In this document: piece by piece, positions 48,200-59,230 of the stretch
Layout of the letters: each line of letters begins with the position of its first letter
Numbering within the stretch: the first letter of the stretch is position 1
Assembly: GCF_000165425.1 (NCBI RefSeq)
Contig: NW_001798990.1
Coordinates: 1,796 to 65,795 of the forward strand
DNA from: Paramecium tetraurelia
Taxonomy: Eukaryota > Ciliophora > Oligohymenophorea > Peniculida > Parameciidae
Direction: 5' to 3'
Length of the DNA stretch: 64,000 bases
Made by a program: the position numbers and the translations under genes
The notes under the pieces: model-generated
What the model was told of the DNA's origin: nothing
Database searches by the model: none
What the model saw: only the letters and a program-made list of their open reading frames with translations

Positions 48200-51187
48200 A
48201 TGGACGACATGAATAATTACGATGAGTTCGGAAATTACATAGGGCCAGAAATCGATTCAGAGGAAGAAGACAATGTGTAGATTGAAGAGGAATAAATGGC
48301 TGAGAATGACCAAGAACATGTAATAGCAAATGTAAGAAAATGCTTCTATCTTTGAAGAGAGTGTACATACCTAATCAATAAGTTGCAGTCATTCTTAATG
48401 AAGACAAATAATACTATCCAGATGCATAACAAGTGTATGGTCGAGATGTTGAAATCAATGTGCAAGAAGAGGATGCTTAGCCAATAACTCAGCCAATGAT
48501 TGCTCCATTAAAATCAAAGGAATTTGATATCTAAGAGACACAGATACCTCAAACTACTTTCGACTATGAGTTTCTGTGTCGTATTTCTAAGAATCCAGCT
48601 TTGGTAAGAAATGTTGCAATTGTAGGCGGTCTGCATCATGGTAAGACATCAATGATGGACGTCTTTGTTAAGCAAACTCATCTTAAGCAATTTAGTTTGT
48701 AGAAAGACATCCGATACACCGATACTCGTCAAGATGAATAATAGAGATTGATCTCCATCAAGGCAATCCCTATGAGTTTATTGTTACCAAATAGCAAAGA
48801 TAAATCATATTTGATAAATCTCTATGACACTCCTGGACATGTGAACTTCATGGACGAGGTGTGTTGTGCCTTACGAGCCAGTGATGCCATGTTGCTCATT
48901 ATTGATGTGATTGAAGGAGTCATGATGACTACTGAAATGCTAATCAAGGCGGCTGTCAAGGAGAAGATGCCTATTGTAGTCGTGATAAACAAAATAGATA
49001 GATTAATCATTGAGTTGAAGTTGCCACCTTCAGATGCCTATTTGAAGATCAAAAACATACTTGATGAAGTCAATATCATTATATCCGATAATGGAGGTAA
49101 TTAGATCATATCACCTCTCAATCATAATGTGGTATTTGGTTCAGGTTTATTTTAATTTGTTTTTACAATCTAGAGTTTTGCAAGGAGATATAACAATTTC
49201 TTAAATCCAGAACAATTCACTCGTCTATTATGGGGAGACATCTACTACGATAATAAAGAAAAGAAATTTGTTCGTAAAATGTCACCATATGCTACCTAAA
49301 GGACATTTGTTGAGTTTATTTTAGAACCCATATATAAGTTATTTGGGTAAGTGGTTTCTAAGGATAAGGAACAATCTAGAACCGTTCTTATTGAGCCAAG
49401 GGATATCTCTCAAAAAAAGTGAATTCAAAATGGACACTAGACCATTACTGAAATTGGTTTGTTCTATCTATTTTGGTAATACCTCTTCTTTAGTTGATGT
49501 ACTAGTGGAGTAAGTCCCTAATTCTCAGGAAGGTAGTAAAAGGAAAATGGAATTATATTATTAGGGTGACAAATCGAAATAATCATTTATTCAAGCATCT
49601 CAAGGTTCACACAAGGGACCATTATGTATAAATGTTGTGAAATTGTACAGTAGACCAGATTGCATGAGTTTCGATGCTCTGGGGAGAGTGGTCAGTGGAA
49701 CTATTAAAAAGGGATAGAATGTTAAATTATTAGGAGAAAAATATAATATAGATGATGAAGAGGATATGGCAATCAGGAATATCAAGAACATATATATCTA
49801 TCAAGGTAGATATAGAGTAGAAGTGAATAAAGTGCCTGCAGGAAATTGGGTGTTGATTGAGGGCATTGATTAATTTATTAGCAAGAGTGCTACTATTACA
49901 GAGGATTCTTAACAGATGGACATCTTGAGACCTATTTAACATAACATTTTAGCGACTATGAAGATTGCCATAGAACCATTAGTTCCAAGTGAATTACCTA
50001 AAATGTTAGAAGGTCTACGTAAGGTAACTAAGAGTTATCCTATTTTGACAACTAAAGTGGAAGAATCTGGAGAACATATTCTATTAGGAACAGGTGAATT
50101 ATATTTGGATTGTGTTATGCATGATTTAAGAAAAATGTATTCAGAAATAGAAATTAAAGTATCAGATCCATCAGTTCGTTTTTGTGAAACTGTTATTGAA
50201 ACATCATCAAAAACATGTTATGCAGATACTCCCAATAAAAAGAATAGGGTATTTTGATTAATATAGTATTAATTAGATTAAAGCATTGGCAACTCCATTA
50301 GACAAAGGTTTGACACCTTAAGATAAGGGTTTGGCTGAGAGAATTGAGAATGAAGAGATTGATTTATCATGGCCTAAGAATAAATTAACCGAATATTTTA
50401 AATCCAATTTTAATTGGGATATAATTTAGAGTAGATCTGTGTGGGCATTCGGTCCAGAGAAAACGGGACCCAATGTATTTCTAGATGATACTCTACCATC
50501 TGAAACAAACAAATAGTTATTAACTGAAGTCAAAGACTATATGATTTAAGGTTTTTAATGGGCAACCAGAGAAGGTCCTTTGTGTGATGAGCCAATCAGA
50601 AATGTGAAATTCAAGATCATCGAAGCCAACATTGCTAATGTAATCATTCCATTTTAATGTAGGAACCCATTTATAGAGGAGGTGGTTAAATAATCCCCAC
50701 AACAAGAAGGGTGTGCTATTCTTCATTCCTTATGGCAACCCCAAAAATCATGGAACCAATGTTATTAACAGAAATTATGTGTTTCCAAGACTGTATTCCT
50801 GCCATCCACAATGTTCTATTAAGAAGAAGAGGACACATCTTATCAGAATAGGCAAAGCCAGGCACACCATTCTCAGTTGTGAGAGCCCACATTCCAACGA
50901 TTGATCACTTTGGATTTGAAACTGATCTTAGAGTACACACTTCAGGATAAGCCTTCTGTTTAAGTGTTTTCGATCATTGGTCATTATTACCAGGAGATCC
51001 TTTAGATAAAACCATAGTGCTTAAGCCTTTAGAGCCAGCACCTTCAAATCATTTGGCCAGAGAATTCATGATCAAAACTAGGAGAAGAAAGGGTTTGAAT
51101 GAAGATGTGTCTATTTTGAAATTCTTTGATGATCAGTTCTTAATTGATTCACTCAAACAAGACAAAGACTATTAATAGTATATTTGA
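48200..51187 (+). CDS. SNU114: U5 snRNP GTPase Snu114 (EFTUD2)
   Basis: 962 aa, an EF-2-like spliceosomal GTPase. Acidic N-terminus ([20 protein letters not shown]), G1 loop [10 protein letters not shown], switch region, [12 protein letters not shown] (G3), VVINKIDRL (G4), [44 protein letters not shown] and [19 protein letters not shown] near the end. It remodels U4/U6 and U5 during spliceosome activation and disassembly. Four introns: 48332-48357 (26 nt), 49347-49368 (22 nt, acceptor AAG), 50249-50276 (28 nt) and 50640-50662 (23 nt). The second resolves what looks like a frameshift. Fitting that a core spliceosomal GTPase is itself interrupted by minimal introns. Confidence 0.95.
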
Positions 51188-51395
51188 TGAGTAATTATTT
51201 ACATCCCAATGAGATAATATTCCCGTAATTTCTTTCTAATAATCTTTATATTTGCATAACACCTCTATTCCATCATCTTGAATATAAAAATATCGACGAA
51301 TAATACATAATTTAATAAAAAAAGAGATAAATTACATAAAATTATAAATATGATTATTTACAATTAGTCTTCATTCATAATTACACATTAATATT

Positions 51396-52357
51396 TCATT
51401 ATCCTAATAGTGGCTTGTAGACTTATCTTGTATTGATGTTAATTCTGTGTTCGGTTAAGTAATTAAAAACATGAAAATCAGTATTTAAATTAGCAACAAG
51501 CTTTGATTATTGGAAGGGGTTTCTAATTGTATTATGAGAGTGAGTACTATATAGGATGAAATGAATTTTCAAGGACTCTGGGTACTCCATGATAGCATTT
51601 CCGAGCATGGCCACTCATAACTAGTAAATCTCCGGAGTCCAACTTAATTGCAACAGGTTTTTCATCTTTGGTTGGTCCTCCGATGACGAAAACACTTGAC
51701 AATCCAAAACTAAAGGAGTAGATAGGAGAATCTTGATCTAGTTCGGCATCATCTAAATGTCCTGTCATGTAATCATGAGATTAATAAAAGTTGATAATGA
51801 CTGATTCACTTTGGTAGTGATTTTGCAATTATAAGAAGTTGTTGGCTCTTTGAGATATCTCTTAGATTGGATCAGGCACTTGTGTTTTTTCTGGAGGGTA
51901 GTGTCTAGATTGAGATGATGAGTTACCTATTGTTCCAATCATATTGATAGCCAACATTTGCCCATCTGATTTTATTATTGAAGTGATATTTCTTGTCATC
52001 GTGGACTATGAATTTGTCGAAGTTCTCGTCTTCTTTGTAGATGAAGAGATTGGTTCTGTAGGGTTGATTGATGTATTCGTTCATGCACAATTTGGAGATG
52101 CTAATTTAATCGTCTAGGTTGAGGAAACCCTTGACTAGGATGACTCCTTGGGGGTAATCGAATCGATGGACAGATCCATTCTTATGAATTCCTTGTTGTT
52201 CCATTTATTGTTCATTTAGATTGTTGACATCGATGAGTTCACTAAAATCGGTTTGGAGACCAGCATAGAATTTGTACTTTTTTTCTGTTTCTTTGAAGGG
52301 ATTTAAATTTTAGTATTGGATAGGCTTTTATTTGTTTTTTTTAATCTTCTAATACAT
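51396..52357 (-). CDS. AlkB-family 2OG-Fe(II) dioxygenase, ALKBH1-like
   Basis: 304 aa. Catalytic core complete: HxD as GHLDDAE, distal His in CYHGVPRV, and the 2-oxoglutarate arginines in HRININTRQV. Between them IYSFSFGLSSVFVIGGPTKDE and SGDLLVMSGHARK are typical of ALKBH1. The N-terminal part carries SVHRFDYPQGVILVKGFLNL and WANVGYQYDWNNR. AlkB enzymes demethylate DNA or RNA bases; ALKBH1 proteins act on tRNA or 6mA DNA. The latter is notable because ciliate macronuclei carry 6mA, but the substrate is inference. Introns 51905-51926 (22 nt) and 51523-51547 (25 nt). Confidence 0.9.
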
Positions 52358-52540
52358 AAATTTATTTAATGAAAGAATTCGCATAAAATTAAAATTGATT
52401 GTAATTAGATGTATATTACTTAAGATTATAAAATAATTTTCTAAAATAAAATTATACAATTTCAAAAAAATGTAATAAATTACATCATCAGATATAATTT
52501 AAAAAATGAGGGACTTTGTTTTCACATATATTATTTTAAG

Positions 52541-54995
52541 ATGATTAGCCTTTTCATTCTAGGTCTCGTTGATTTGATACTCTGTTAGAATAGATTTTAT
52601 TACCATGACCCGAGTAATGACATTACAAAACCAAGAACTCACGCCAAGATCTCTGATAGCGGTAACTGAATAATTAATAATCTGTAGACACTCATTTCGA
52701 TTTTTACTTTGAGTTTAGCGAAGATAAGAAGGAAGTGATAATGTTCATAGAGATAGATAAAATTAGTTATTTTTCATTGGGACTTGGAAAATCCATGTCA
52801 GATGGAGATTTATGGGTATTTGAAGTTTACGAAAATGTGATAACTGTTAACGATTCTTATTGTGAGAAACATGGAAGACCTCCAACTGATGTTTCCTTAG
52901 GAGGGACAGACGATTTGTAACTCTTGGGTTACTACTACAATTAGAATGGCAAAACAGGTGTGAAGTTCAAGAGATCAGTTAAAACAGGTATCCACATCAA
53001 TCTAAATATGTTAGGCGACAAATATGACAAAGACTTAGTGGAGGGAGAAGCAGTGGAGTTCATATGGGCTCACGGTAAGACGGAGGCTAATATCACATTG
53101 TCCAACCATGGGAATGTGAACAGAGGAGCTGTGGTATTGAATTTCACCGATGATGGAGGCAGCAACGATGTCATTATAGTGGATGGAGACAACACCTATT
53201 ACATTCACAAATGGACAAACTTTGCCTGTTGGGGCATAGCAAGTGATGTTGCGATAATTGTTGGAAGGTATTACAAGACCTGGGGATATCGAACATATCT
53301 CCATGGGTTCTTGTTCATCTTGATAGTGACGAGTTCCATCACAACAGCCATGATGATGTTGAGTACAGATTGGGCTATTTTGGAATGGAGCAACTTTAAG
53401 GAATAATCCATTAAAAATCAATTCCATATTATCATTTTTATGATTGTGGCAATATTTATGATTGCATAAAGCATTGGAGGCGTTCTCTATAATTTAATGT
53501 TAAGTTCATTGAAGATTAACCAAAAGGTCTCAGTCAAACCCTCCATTCATGCCATTTTAGGCAATGTCGTATACACACTCGGCAAATTACAAATCATAGC
53601 AGGTCTCTTCATGGACAACGATGTTAGACTCATGTTGATTTTGGGAGCTGTTTTCACCACTCGCCTTATATTGGAAATCCTGTATCAAAAGGGTAGTTTG
53701 GTTAGTGTAGTCATGACTGGAAAAGACTCGCATTCCAATAAAGTGTATGAGGAGGGTTAAAATCGCTTATTGGATATCAACAGTAGTCAGCAAGATGACA
53801 GTTTCGAAAAGAATTCTTCAAAATTATGGTGCATCTATAAGAACCAAGTCGTTGAATTGTCACAGATGATTCATCCAGGTGGCAATTACATTTGGAAACT
53901 TATTTAAGGCCAAGATGTTACTCGATATATTATAGGAGCTTACTCTCTTGATTAACTCAAACTCCAAGCCTACAAACACAGCATCTACACTCTCAAGATA
54001 TTGGAATAATATGTTACAGGTATCTATGTCATTCCAGATCCAGAATTCTTTGTCAATAAAGCTAATAGAAGAGTAGTCAAATAATTAGAGGAAACATGGA
54101 AATTGAATACAGTTAATCCCTATACTGATTAAGTTGCTTACTTCGGATTTGTTAATGAAAAGTATCAATTCAAAAATACTTTATCTGGTCTCCAAACATT
54201 TGGCCAATACTTTGTAATCACATCCTAAGAGGATTCAGCTATTTCTACTAGATAGTACACCATGGTCTTAAGTATGACTTAGCAAAGGATCAAGTATAGA
54301 AAGGACATATCGGAACTCTTTAAAAAGATTCTCTCTTTGCAAAACATACAGAAGGAAGTTCCAAAAGAGGAAGAATACTTGTCTGAGTTACCTTTAATAA
54401 TTAAGAAGTATCAATCAAAAAATGGGTTCTCCTCTTTCATTCATGACGACAATCGCAATGGAGAGTATCTTATTCAAGGACCTTATGGAAATAATCTCAC
54501 TATTGAAAATGGCAGTCATTTAGTGTTCATTGCAGGTGGCACTGGATTGTTCCCATTCTTAGACTTACTTGAATATCAACTCAAAATGACCTATCATAAC
54601 ATACTATATAAGTAGTTCGGCTAAGATGCTGTGTAATTTATGAACCCAGGAACAATTAAGAATTTCAAAATCACTCTATTTCTAGCTGTCAACTCAGCAG
54701 ATGATTTGGTATTTATCTTATTCATTATTCTTAGATTGGCAAAGACATCTATTTCACTTTGTTATCGTTACAAAACCAATTGGACACACCCAATTTCAAA
54801 ATGATCGTCAAAGGAAACTTTAAATTAAAGGAATGCGAGATCATCCCCCAAAGATTCAATGCCTAGATTTTGAAGTCGTTCCTTGGGGACTTCAATTCTG
54901 TATCCAATTTCTTTATTTGTGGACCACCCACTATGAATACTACAACCGAAAAAATCTTAAGAGATGTGGGAGTTAATAACATAACTGTTCTTTGA
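52541..54995 (+). CDS. DOMON - cytochrome b561 - cytochrome b5 - flavin/NAD reductase fusion
   Basis: 800 aa. Signal peptide (MISLFILGLVDLILC), DOMON domain to residue ~215 (FDFYFEFSEDKKEVIMFIEI; DGDLWVFEVYEN), then a b561-type multi-TM core at ~230-400 (LHGFLFILIVTSSITTAMMM; HIIIFMIVAIFMIAQSIGGV; HAILGNVVYTLGKLQIIAGL) with His on several helices for haem. Next a cytochrome b5-like domain with HPGGN (~445) and a ferredoxin-reductase-like module: YLIQGPYGN, FIAGGTGLFPFL and FICGPPTMN for FAD/NAD(P) binding. Electrons would pass from cytosolic NAD(P)H through b5 and b561 haem to an extracellular DOMON acceptor, perhaps for metal reduction. Introns 52662-52687 and 54709-54734 (26 nt each). All domains are in one intact frame. 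Confidence 0.88.
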
Positions 54996-55092
54996 TTATT
55001 TATATATAGATATAATTATGAATATCATCATTGTTTTATGTACAATTTTTAGTAACAAGAAACACTGAACTTACTGACACACACACACACCA

Positions 55093-56369
55093 TCAAGAAG
55101 AATATCGACCATTCAATTGGTTTTTCTATATAATTGAACATATATATATACATGCTAACATTATTGAAACAATGGTAGATATCATCCCTCCACAACACTA
55201 TAAAAAGTTAAATAGACCAAAATATTGGATATGATCATTCCAATCCTAGGCAATTATGGCCAATAATGTAGACGTAGTGCCACAATCAACCAATCCCCAA
55301 AGAATGGCTATTAAAAAACACAGGCCGTAATTCTATTCGTAAGTGTTCATTATAGCCAATAACAAGGCTATGGATATTAAATGAAATTGCAATAGTTGGC
55401 TTGTATATTTAGGCGTATAAGAGTTGAATACACCTACAAATATCTATAAAATAGGAATAATATTATACTCCTCCCAAGACTTCACAACATCCTAAGACTG
55501 TCATAACGAATAGAGTATATTTGGTGATTTCTTCGTCACTAAGAGATGAAGTGTTAATAGAATTTTCAATGACATAATGCATAACATTCCATTGAAAACT
55601 CAAAAGACACCCAGTGATCATCATCGGGAAAATAAAGCATTATACTCTAAATTCTTTCATAGTCAAAATGACAGAAATTGGATTCAACTTTCTCAATTCC
55701 TAAGTGCTCTTGAATTATTGCTCATCTTCCTGGAGTAAAACAACACTGTGGGTATAACGCTTCGGTTAAGGTACCAAAAGAAAAGATAAAGAACCTAAAG
55801 TTGCCACAGCGACCATCAAACAGTAAAAATAGAATTGCTTTATTTTAACAATCAAAAAGGCAGAATATAAACTACCTATGACTTAGGATAGTTATAGAAC
55901 TGCCCAGGCAATACCATAATACAATCCAGCTTTTTTGGAATACTTACTCAATTATGCGACGTAATCATTTTGTGTAATAAACAGACCAGAGGACGTGAAT
56001 CCACTTACGGCTGATGATATAATAGTCACTAAGTAGATCCAGAAATCACTGCAGATTCCATCCTCTTTATCTGCACAACTACAAACCAATAAGCCAGATA
56101 TCAAAAATAGCAAATACCCAAGGGAATGAATAAAAAAACTATGATGATATGGCAATTTCCTGATGTATAAAATGCCTAGAATATTAATATTTGTATTTAC
56201 AGACAAAATTTCCAATCATTCCAAAAAAGAAGATAGTGAAAATCGAAATATTCCCCAAATAATCGAAGCCTTTCTACTCAAAAATCTGGGTCATTACATT
56301 CAGGCCAGTCGATGTTGCTGATAAATATACCGCAAACACTAAGCTCATATAAATTAAGCTACAGAGCAT
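55093..56369 (-). CDS. UNC93-like major facilitator membrane protein
   Basis: 408 aa, mostly hydrophobic with about 11 TM helices. UNC93-like features: start LVFAVYLSATSTGLNV, GLYYGIAWAVLQLSQVIGSL, and CFLIAILWGLVDCGTTS. UNC93 relatives act as transporter-like or ion-channel regulatory membrane proteins, with trafficking roles in animals. Introns 56176-56200 and 55444-55468 (25 nt each); the second is needed to read the last helices in frame. ATG 56369 is the first good start. TGA 55093-55095; it is convergent with the reductase fusion gene (97 bp apart). Confidence 0.82.
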
Positions 56370-56433: not shown

Positions 56434-57287
56434 TCATAACAATTCATCAATAGATTAATATTATTCGTCATTCCCTTAAAATAATGATATTAATTCTTTT
56501 TCCTTTGATTTGAAGAGATACTCCAAACGAGTTCTTTTTTCTTGTTGTTGATTCCTCTTCAACACTTTGACAGCTTAACTCAATGAGATCTGTTTGGCCC
56601 TTTTTGCATTTTGCTTTTCCTTAAAACAATATTCTTACATGTCTCATAAGCAACTTAGCATTCGAACTTTCAAAACTCAACTAGTCAACGAATTTCTATT
56701 AAATGTCCGATTCTCTTTATTTACAATCGAATTTAGTTAATCTACCTAAGTATATTTTCCCTGAAATTCTCTGCTTCCTCTCTTTTTTCAATTGATTCGT
56801 ATCAAATGGTGGAGGAGATAAATTAGCATGGGCCAAAATAGGAGGTAATTCCTTCCTTTATCTACTATGATGACTCTACAACATCCTTTTAGGCGATTTC
56901 GTTTTTTCTCTCTTCTCTTCAGGTACAAAGGTTGGATTCGACAAAATCAGTTGCTCTTGAGAACTCTTATTCAAAATCAATTTGGATTGACTCTTATTAT
57001 ACTTTCTGCATTCAATAGATTGGGATTGGTGTACTAACGACTTCTAATTTTCATTTTATGGTAACTCAATAAATGGTTTACCTTGATTGAATTTAGGAAG
57101 TCTAGAACTTACTTATCTTAATCCAAACACTGAAATAGTAGTGGCATCATATACTTTCCAATTTGTTCGGATTTTAAATGAACAGATATCCTAATTTAAT
57201 CTTAGTGTCAGTTCTAGCTGAAATGAATTCTGCTGGTTCCAAAATACTCTCCTATGAAATCATTCTCCTAGTTGTTTAAGAATCCAT
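56434..57287 (-). CDS. Hypothetical basic protein (exon structure partly unresolved)
   Basis: ATG 57287 (MDSQTTRRMISQESILEPAE) to TGA 56434-56436, about 270 aa. Middle part is Ser/Lys/Gln-rich (KRMLQSHHSRQRKELPPILA; FDTNQLKKERKQR) and the C-terminus is a charged helix (EKQNAKRAKQISLSQAVKVL; LKRNQQQEKRTRLEYLFKSK). A 19-nt intron (56621-56639 approximately) is likely before the C-terminal helix. Between 57190 and 57080 the frame shifts at least once without an obvious intron, so either an unusual splice or an error is present. No family recognised. Confidence 0.5.
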
Positions 57288-58228
57288 TAAAATTAGCTAA
57301 AAATTAAATAAAAATCCAATGTCTTAAAATATACTTCGATATTTGGGTCTTAGAAGAGTTCCAAAGAATAATTAGAATTTAAAAAAACAATCATAACATT
57401 TAAGTCTGAATATTGAATTAATAATTGATTTTCCATATTGCATTCAATATAGATATAACAAATGGAAAAACCAGAAAAAATTAGATTCCATTCGAAATGA
57501 ACTGGTTTCTGAATTTATATAGTATTGAAGACTTAAAAATTTCTTAAACATTGATCTTTAATTTATTCAAAAATATTTAAAATGCAGTTTGATCTATCCA
57601 CTTAACTTACCAGTTTAGATTCACTAACATTAAAAAAATCTCTCTTAAATAAAGATTTACTTATTTTTTCGGATAATATATTAATAATTATATTTATTTA
57701 TAATAATATATTAATTTCATGATAGCTTAAACGTCATGCTGATATTTTACAGTACTCTAAACATTAGAATGTTATATTTCAATTATTCTCAATCAAAAAT
57801 CTCAGTATCTATAATTATAAGAACATATCACACTTATACAAAATTTAATTTTACCTTGACTAACTCCTCTAATTCAAAATGTAGAGTTTTCTATTAATTT
57901 ATTCTTACTCATTTCACATTAGTATGTATTTCCATTGAGTATTATAAATTGCAAATAAAATCGATGATACTAAATTTAGAACTTTCATAAAATTATTTGT
58001 CTTTTTAAAAGTCAACACAGTATTTAATTCTTGTTATTGCAAAGATCATCTGAATTAAAAATTAGTTTTGAGTAATAAAGCTAACATTTTAGACATATTG
58101 TTAATATTAAAATAGTTAAGATAATTCTCATGATAATGAAATCATGAAGATATAGATACGACTTTTCTTATAAGTATTTATTAATAAAAGAAATGATTAT
58201 TTCATATTTTTCAAACCTTGGATATTTA
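57288..58228. other. Long AT-rich region without supported genes
   Basis: 941 bp. Frames open to TGA exist on both strands but none shows domain motifs or balanced residue use. No RNA gene, tandem repeat or mobile-element end noticed. Confidence 0.5.
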
Positions 58229-58618
58229 TCAATCTTTCTACTATTTATAAGAATGAAGTCTAAAATTTGTCACTTAAGTTCCTTTGTTTTTTAATCTCCC
58301 TTTCTTAGTTGGGGATCTTGAACTGACATTCGAACTCTCCTCTCTAACCTTAGGGATGATTATTATTTTGTTTCCAAATTTTAGTAAATCTCTCATTATT
58401 TTAATCCCCTCTTCCTAGCTTCTTGGCTTAATCATAATCATTTGGATATTGGATATTTAGACACCCTCCTATGTAGACTCTTTAATCAAATTTAATTGTT
58501 GACTGTTAGCCTAGATGGTTGAGTTTATGCTTTTTATTCCAGTTTCTAAGGTGACTGTCTGCAATTACTAAGTGTCTTCAAATTCTGTATCTTTTTATGA
58601 CTTACAGATGTTACCCAT
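58229..58618 (-). CDS. Small protein with myristoyl/palmitoyl N-terminus
   Basis: 129 aa, intronless, ATG 58618 to TGA 58229-58231. MGNICKSQKDTEFEDTQQLQ has Gly2, Cys5 and Ser7, a good dual-lipidation signal. A helical middle (TLETGIKSINSTIQANSQQL) and a basic C-terminus (SSRSPTKKGRLKNKGTQ) follow. Probably a peripheral membrane protein; no family recognised. Confidence 0.68.
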
Positions 58619-59230
58619 GAATTAAAAAATTTAATCTTTTCATTTCATTTACCCAACCTATTAACCAAAATAAATTTTAAGATCCCTCGTTTGAAAATTA
58701 TTCAAGTCAAGTCACTTTCCAAAATATAATATTTTTAGGATATTTTTTTAATGATGAAAAACTAAAATTTAGTTACTTAGGAATACATGTTTTGATTAAT
58801 AGTGCATTTATATGGATTTGATAATATTTATCACTACTGATTCTCATGATCAAGGAAATTAAAAAGTAAAAATTTAATATAAGGGGGTTATAATATAAGA
58901 TAGACATAATTTATATTACTATAAATTTTTAATTGTCTAACTTTTTTTTTATATGAGCACTTATTATTCAAATTAATTAAAATAAATTTTATTTTCTGCT
59001 AATCCTCGATTCAAATTAGGACAAGTCTAAGATATATTCAAAATTTCATTGAAAGCATAAATAATAACTGATTTAAGCATTTACAAGATAAAAATCGATG
59101 ATTCTTCATCTTTAAGTCAGAAACTAATTACTTAGAATAAACAGTATGCTAAATGAAAAAAAAATACATTACCTAATAAATTTTGACAAAAAGAAAGTAT
59201 TAAATTTAAGAAGGATTACTATTTTAAAAA
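58619..59230. other. Intergenic spacer
   Basis: 612 bp between divergent starts. AT-rich with a T-rich stretch at 58944-58951; no supported gene. Promoters for both flanking genes should lie here. Confidence 0.5.

Follow-up and report, generated by a model that had tools for sequence, protein, structure and literature searches.

Gene structure

The gene described here lies on the forward strand of a 64,000-nucleotide stretch of the Paramecium tetraurelia genome (C37:1796-65795, hereafter the window), and positions given without a contig name are those of the window. Its translation with genetic code 6, in which TAA and TAG are read as glutamine, yields one polypeptide in which a secreted-type N-terminus is followed by a DOMON domain, a b561-type core, a cytochrome b5 domain and an FAD/NAD reductase (Table 1). 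Code 6, the 26-27-nt introns and a 69 Mb genome that contains paralogs are in keeping with the ciliate origin supposed in the original prediction. The spliced alignments of the paralogs on contigs C48 and C218 begin at a Met that matches the exon 1 Met of the window copy (C37). Both neighbouring features are on the reverse strand. An exon of one neighbour (51478-51999) carries a 2OG-Fe(II) oxygenase domain (PF13532, Pfam E 2.7e-28), which we take to be AlkB-like, and the downstream neighbour (55286-56215) codes for a portion of a transporter of the major facilitator type (Pfam E 1.1e-8).

Table 1. Positions in the window of the exons, introns and domains of the gene
Feature	Position	Strand	Remarks
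Whole gene	52541-54995	+	Four exons, three introns; product 791 aa; code 6
Exon 1	52541-52661	+	Aa 1-40 plus one base; hydrophobic, signal-peptide-like N-terminus, hydrophobic stretch 1-20; spliced model
Intron 1	52662-52687	+	26 nt, GT..AG, phase 1; place and phase matched in C48 (29 nt) and C218 (26 nt)
Exon 2	52688-52987	+	Most of DOMON, putative haem ligand Met77; spliced model, Pfam
Intron 2	52988-53014	+	27 nt, GT..AG, phase 1, frame-neutral; position and phase matched in C48 (28 nt) and C218 (26 nt)
Exon 3	53015-54708	+	End of DOMON, b561 core, b5, FAD part, start of NAD domain; 564 open codons
Intron 3	54709-54734	+	26 nt, GT..AG, phase 0; place matched in C48 (25 nt) and C218 (23 nt)
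Exon 4	54735-54995	+	Remainder of NAD domain, stop TGA included; spliced model
DOMON	52696-53076	+	Aa 44-161, interrupted by intron 2; Pfam PF03351 E 3.2e-15, over cut-off
b561-type core	53206-53691	+	Aa 205-366; Pfam PF03188 E 0.0055 at aa 245-338, under cut-off; H205, H237, H278, H319
Cytochrome b5 domain	53809-54021	+	Aa 406-476; Pfam PF00173 E 1.1e-4, just under cut-off; HPGG His427, His462
Presumed FAD motif R-Q-Y-T	54250-54261	+	Aa 553-556; R553 and Y555 invariant in 7/7 aligned members
NAD(P)-binding domain	54526-54950	+	Aa 645-777, split by intron 3; PF00175 in Pfam at E 0.0015, below cut-off; GGTG 648-651, CGPP 767-770

The second intron is invisible by reading frame because its length is a multiple of three, and it was detected since the C218 paralog lacks the corresponding residues. 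Its removal raises the Pfam score of the DOMON domain from 46.7 to 56.9 bits. The intron has been accepted because of this higher score and because GT..AG introns occur at the matching place and phase in both C48 and C218. A two-intron model of 800 amino acids, nine of them intron-derived, was dropped once these two paralogs had revealed the 27-nt intron; the first paralog search of the genome had been made with this older model.

In-frame TGA is absent from exon 3; it occurs 17 and 14 times in the other forward frames and 7, 14 and 29 times in those of the reverse strand. Of 500 first-order Markov sequences as long as the exon, the best had 400 open codons and none attained 564. Based on these two observations, the reading frame of exon 3 is not a product of chance. 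The DOMON-b561, b561-b5, b5-FAD and FAD-NAD junctions are all located inside this exon. The fusion of DOMON, b561, b5 and reductase in one protein is real and is hereby confirmed. The original prediction had described these modules as a single-chain fusion; their order stands in one spliced frame, while the accompanying account of the gene, which lacked the 27-nt intron 2 and made no mention of the paralog family, has been revised.

The paralog family

The genome assembly searched comprises 69,072,372 bases in 231 contigs, and the queries were the window protein and two of its paralogs, the second and third of which added no locus. At least ten loci have been identified: C37, C48, C218, C85, two copies on C71 (an intact one at 16.5 kb, C71b, and one at 7 kb), C166, C160, C153 and C81. 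Seven models (C37, C218, C85, C71b, C166, C160 and C153) were aligned, and all counts out of seven refer to them; C48 was left out for a frameshift in its DOMON, C81 since it is cut by the contig end, and the C71 copy at 7 kb as degenerate and frameshifted. The C153 model includes a doubtful 19-nt intron, and the N-terminus of the C166 model is uncertain.

The b561-b5-FNR core is common to the family and the ectodomain is variable. One DOMON is present in C37 and C218, and in C48 by alignment only. In C160 (C160:210044-212886), two DOMON stretches separated by a segment judged by eye to be Cys-rich precede the core, and C153 has a weak DOMON (15.9 bits against a cut-off of 32.7). C85 and C71b have a hydrophobic start and a short linker with no DOMON, and none was found in C166, in which the N-terminus of the model is the uncertain part; three of the seven aligned members are thus without this domain. 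A tree of the seven cores places two changes in DOMON presence, of which the well-supported branches force only one, and C166 sits on a long branch, so that the tree is compatible with gain of the DOMON as well as with loss. The copy at C71:6905-7542 is nearest to the DOMON-less C85/C71b type and lies some 9 kb away from the intact one on that contig; it looks like a decaying tandem duplicate. Relatives were also sought in prokaryote genomes, with 28 pattern matches, and in viral contigs, with 21, none of which was confirmed.

Domain assignments

The curated Pfam cut-offs are 32.7 bits for DOMON, 23 for Cytochrom_B561, 23.7 for Cyt-b5 and 22 for NAD_binding_1. Of the Pfam domains originally predicted for the window protein, DOMON passes its cut-off, while the other three fall under theirs. 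Elsewhere in the family, Cytochrom_B561 is over its cut-off in C85 (31.2 bits) and C71b (31.1 bits), both of which are without DOMON, Cyt-b5 in C160 (25.7 bits) and C153 (24.4 bits), and NAD_binding_1 in three of the six other members (C85, C71b and C166).

The flavin-binding half has been more difficult to assign. Members of the FNR and b5-reductase superfamily are characterised by an R-x-Y-[ST] motif, a GTG..P NAD motif and CG(PP). The R-Q-Y-T of the window protein is presumably the FAD motif, going by its meaning in the FNR family. FAD_binding_6 was matched in one of the seven members (E 0.043), and PF08030, the NAD domain of ferric reductases, gave weak matches in three of the seven, the best with an E of 0.0014 and under cut-off. 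NCBIfam reductase models match the C-terminal part of the window protein with a best E of 4.2e-8, far under their own cut-offs. The putative FAD half has therefore been identified mainly by the R-x-Y-[ST] motif, the domain order and the reductase matches.

Compared with PDB chains, the family profile matches NqrF, ferredoxin-NADP reductase, b5 reductase and cytochrome b5, with no b561 or DOMON chain among the best 60 of 128 matches. When a profile of the b561 cores was run against the PDB set with E allowed up to 10, the one match (E 0.2) was unrelated and no b561 structure appeared. The single-sequence AlphaFold model of the exon 3 product has a mean pLDDT of 35.6.

Haem, flavin and NAD ligand residues

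The haem-binding His pairs expected of a b561 core, whose absence would have spoken against the original prediction, were found: all four residues (H205, H237, H278 and H319) are in place in the window protein and in 7/7 aligned members. The b5 residues His427 and His462 are also invariant in all seven. They are 35 residues apart and the corresponding spacing in microsomal b5 is 24, a difference that counts against the reading of the protein preferred below. On the reductase side, R553, Y555, G649-T650-G651, P654, C767 and G768 are invariant in 7/7.

The putative DOMON ligands of the window protein are Met77 and His172 (53107-53109), which lie 95 residues apart. This Met and His pair is found in three of the four DOMON-bearing models, namely C37, C218 and, in its second DOMON only, C160; the DOMON of C153 has kept the Met and has Arg in place of His.

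In the hydropathy plot of the window protein, residues 234-259 and 271-304 stand out as strong stretches, and weaker ones that overlap in part are seen at 320-365. Residues 205-226 stay below the threshold, and five helices are not resolved. A first helix matching residues 205-226 is shown by the hydropathy of C160, C153 and C166.

Selection and duplication history

The C48 paralog is 77% identical to the window protein and has one frameshift in its DOMON despite purifying selection along the gene; either an error in sequencing or a recent defect could account for the frameshift, which was read through for the estimates that follow. By the Nei-Gojobori method, C37 and C48 differ by a dS of 0.88 and a dN of 0.089, an overall ratio of 0.10. 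The dN/dS values by domain are 0.077 for DOMON, 0.056 for b561, 0.074 for b5, 0.113 for the FAD stretch and 0.132 for the NAD domain, and the linker that precedes b5, at 0.48, is relaxed. Between these two copies, purifying selection is seen in every domain. Between C37 and C218, dS is saturated in DOMON, b561 and NAD, for which pN/pS is 0.22, 0.21 and 0.35, respectively.

Three pieces of the window (50684-51218, 51390-55010 and 58163-58754) match C48 colinearly in blastn, and C218 shares a downstream piece (56804-57233). Since the flanking DNA is shared in colinear order, C37 and C48 are regarded as segmental copies, probably from a whole-genome duplication. The 535 bases at 50684-51218 are 97.8% identical to C48, against 83% and 71% in the other two matching blocks; this looks like gene conversion or strong constraint.

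Comparison with known systems

FRE and NOX flavocytochromes carry electrons from NAD(P)H to the outside via FAD and two membrane haems. They have a different membrane domain, and in the window protein the b5 and DOMON haems would be added. In b5/b5-reductase fusions of the NCB5OR and nitrate reductase type, b5 is followed by an FNR-type reductase; this part is alike here, but in those fusions it is not attached to b561 or DOMON. The union of DOMON, b561, b5 and reductase in one chain is unusual, although each of these modules is familiar.

The CYBDOM proteins, including plant CRR/HYP1, insect CG8399 and mouse SDR2, are like the window protein in having an extracellular DOMON with Met/His and a four-His b561 core (PMC10784552, PMC10691727). 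CRR has five helices, the DOMON ligands Met89/His180 and the His pairs 220-289 and 256-325, and the pairing of the first with the third and the second with the fourth His of the window protein, together with its DOMON Met/His, reproduces the layout described for CRR (PMC10784552). As described in these sources, CYBDOM proteins are composed of DOMON and b561 (insect members also have a reeler domain), use ascorbate as the cytosolic donor and reduce ferric chelates (PMC10784552, PMC10691727). When plant CRR was expressed in yeast, ferric reduction was raised only when an ascorbate precursor was supplied, and the yeast fre1 fre2 deletion strain forms ascorbate only from such a precursor (PMC10784552). 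Unlike CYBDOM, the window protein contains b5 and an FAD/NAD reductase in the same chain and has not kept the basic ascorbate positions.

An extracellular DOMON on a transmembrane-haem/FAD/NAD(P)H chain has also been described for reductases of Naegleria, Albugo and Phytophthora; their membrane core is FRD rather than b561, and no b5 domain is described for them in the text of PMC3591440 drawn on here. In contrast to those DOMON-bearing ferric reductases, the present family has no FRD match. A DOMON fused to an FAD/NAD-binding oxidoreductase is mentioned in the discussion of PMC10784552, citing Aravind 2001. In a literature search of titles and the starts of abstracts, no DOMON-b561-b5-FNR architecture was reported for ciliates; the fusion list of Iyer et al. 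2007, outside that scope, may contain one. The modules are known and their combination is a variant of CYBDOM, for which priority cannot be claimed.

Proposed electron path

It is likely that the window protein is a single-chain, NAD(P)H-driven transmembrane reductase at the cell surface or in a compartment topologically equivalent to the outside, and the most probable function of such an enzyme would be that of a metalloreductase. Electrons would enter from cytosolic NAD(P)H and pass to FAD, from which they would be transferred to the b5 haem (His427/His462), the inner b561 haem (His237/His319), the outer b561 haem (His205/His278) and the DOMON haem (Met77/His172). From the DOMON haem they would finally reach an acceptor on the outside, for which chelates of Fe(III) or Cu(II) are the likeliest candidates. 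The protein would thus operate in the manner of FRE/NOX flavocytochromes and of the plant and animal CYBDOM reductases, with b561 as its membrane core. The built-in b5-reductase module would replace ascorbate, the usual cytosolic donor of b561 proteins.

If five helices follow an extracellular DOMON as in CRR, His205/His278 would be on the outer side, His237/His319 on the inner side and the b5-FNR part in the cytosol; it is the five-helix layout of the CYBDOM proteins that places b5 and the reductase there. Likewise, a metal is proposed as the external acceptor because the CYBDOM relatives reduce ferric chelates, and by this analogy the metalloreductase role is plausible. We infer cofactor loading, direction, orientation, helix number, donor and acceptor alike. 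The complete NAD(P)H-to-outside chain put forward in the original prediction is in keeping with the domain order and the ligand residues; hydropathy supports the five-helix layout only in part.

If the proposal holds, a b561 core, known as ascorbate-driven, would be able to run on NAD(P)H, and the whole electron path would stand in one expressible protein. Members of the family would be candidates for reducing iron at the surface of a ciliate without any matched FRE/NOX domain. Since some of them have the DOMON haem and others lack it, they would form a natural series in which the role of the outer haem could be tested.

Alternative readings

In Dcytb and AtCytb561-B, ascorbate is bound at three basic cytosolic positions, H2-7, H2-3 and H4-7 (PMC10691727). 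None of these positions is basic in any of the seven aligned members (W, T and V in the window protein; W/L/S/C/Y, T/L/V/A and V/I/T, respectively, across the family), which fits a donor swap away from ascorbate. The absence of the basic positions is no bar to membership of the CYBDOM group, since the insect CG8399 CYBDOMs completely conserve H4-7 alone (PMC10691727). The window protein has basic residues near these sites, R233 (H2-4) and K315 (H4-4), and it is possible that they leave a basic patch able to bind ascorbate. In an ascorbate-linked redox system, also raised in the original prediction, ascorbate or monodehydroascorbate would trade electrons with the b561 core at one side of the membrane or at both, and the b5 reductase would do no more than regenerate ascorbate. 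Characterised b561 proteins take ascorbate as their principal donor (PMC10784552), and R233 and K315 lie close to H2 and H4; against this, the three positions are never basic in the family, and we regard such a system as quite improbable. Almost as little credence is given to an oxidase that passes electrons to O2 and produces superoxide outside or in the phagosome, replacing the classical NADPH oxidase. The window protein does share the logic of NOX, in which electrons from NAD(P)H reach the outside by way of FAD and two membrane haems, and no FRD domain was matched in the genome, an absence that is weakly tested. However, the DOMON of relatives is tied to metal reduction or electron hand-over in PMC10784552 and PMC10691727, and six-coordinate His/His and Met/His haems would favour electron transfer over O2 binding.

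The location of the protein leaves somewhat more room, and a redox chain on an internal membrane, such as that of a food vacuole or secretory granule, where luminal metal or disulfide cargo would be reduced, is possible though rather unlikely; it would be compatible with the electron path proposed above. The signal-peptide-like start permits any site of the secretory pathway, and the differing ectodomains of the diverged paralogs may point to differing sites, whereas plant CRR is found at the plasma membrane (PMC10784552). The modest Pfam scores of three domains in the window copy could be taken as a sign that two genes have been joined into one model or that the assembly is chimeric. Such an artefact is very improbable, as the domain junctions sit inside one open exon, the b561-b5-FNR order recurs at paralogs on other contigs and all domains are under purifying selection; on these grounds, the two-gene and misassembly readings have been rejected.

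Ferric reductase domains and a possible replacement

Up to an E of 10, PF01794 (Ferric_reduct) matched nowhere in the genome, in a search whose positive controls were bacterial only, and it is not among the families matched by the seven members at E 0.1. The sensitivity of such genome searches is low: the b561 model found one of at least eight b561-bearing loci, and of the 14 places found with PF00175 none belongs to the b561-b5-FNR family. In a survey of 263 eukaryotic proteomes, FRD was missing from 33, of which 18 were from Alveolata (PMC3591440). The missing PF01794 match and these 18 proteomes together suggest that b561-b5-FNR proteins may take the place of FRE/NOX. More tentatively, and with rather more doubt than confidence, it can be proposed that a lineage without FRD/NOX membrane domains rebuilt this enzyme class on b561, in which the fused b5-reductase would supply NAD(P)H electrons instead of ascorbate, and paralogs would reach a different external acceptor through a swap of the ectodomain (absent, a single DOMON, or DOMON-Cys-rich-DOMON).

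Other DOMON proteins

AIR12 is a GPI-anchored DOMON haem protein (PMC10784552) that has a DOMON, putatively haem-binding in the latter, in common with the window protein and is without b561 or reductase. Four more DOMON genes of the genome, on C74, C5, C86 and C173, are AIR12-like in layout: in partial alignments they have a hydrophobic C-terminus and no b561 match. In the C74 gene, the DOMON is followed by a long Ser/Thr/Gly-rich stretch.
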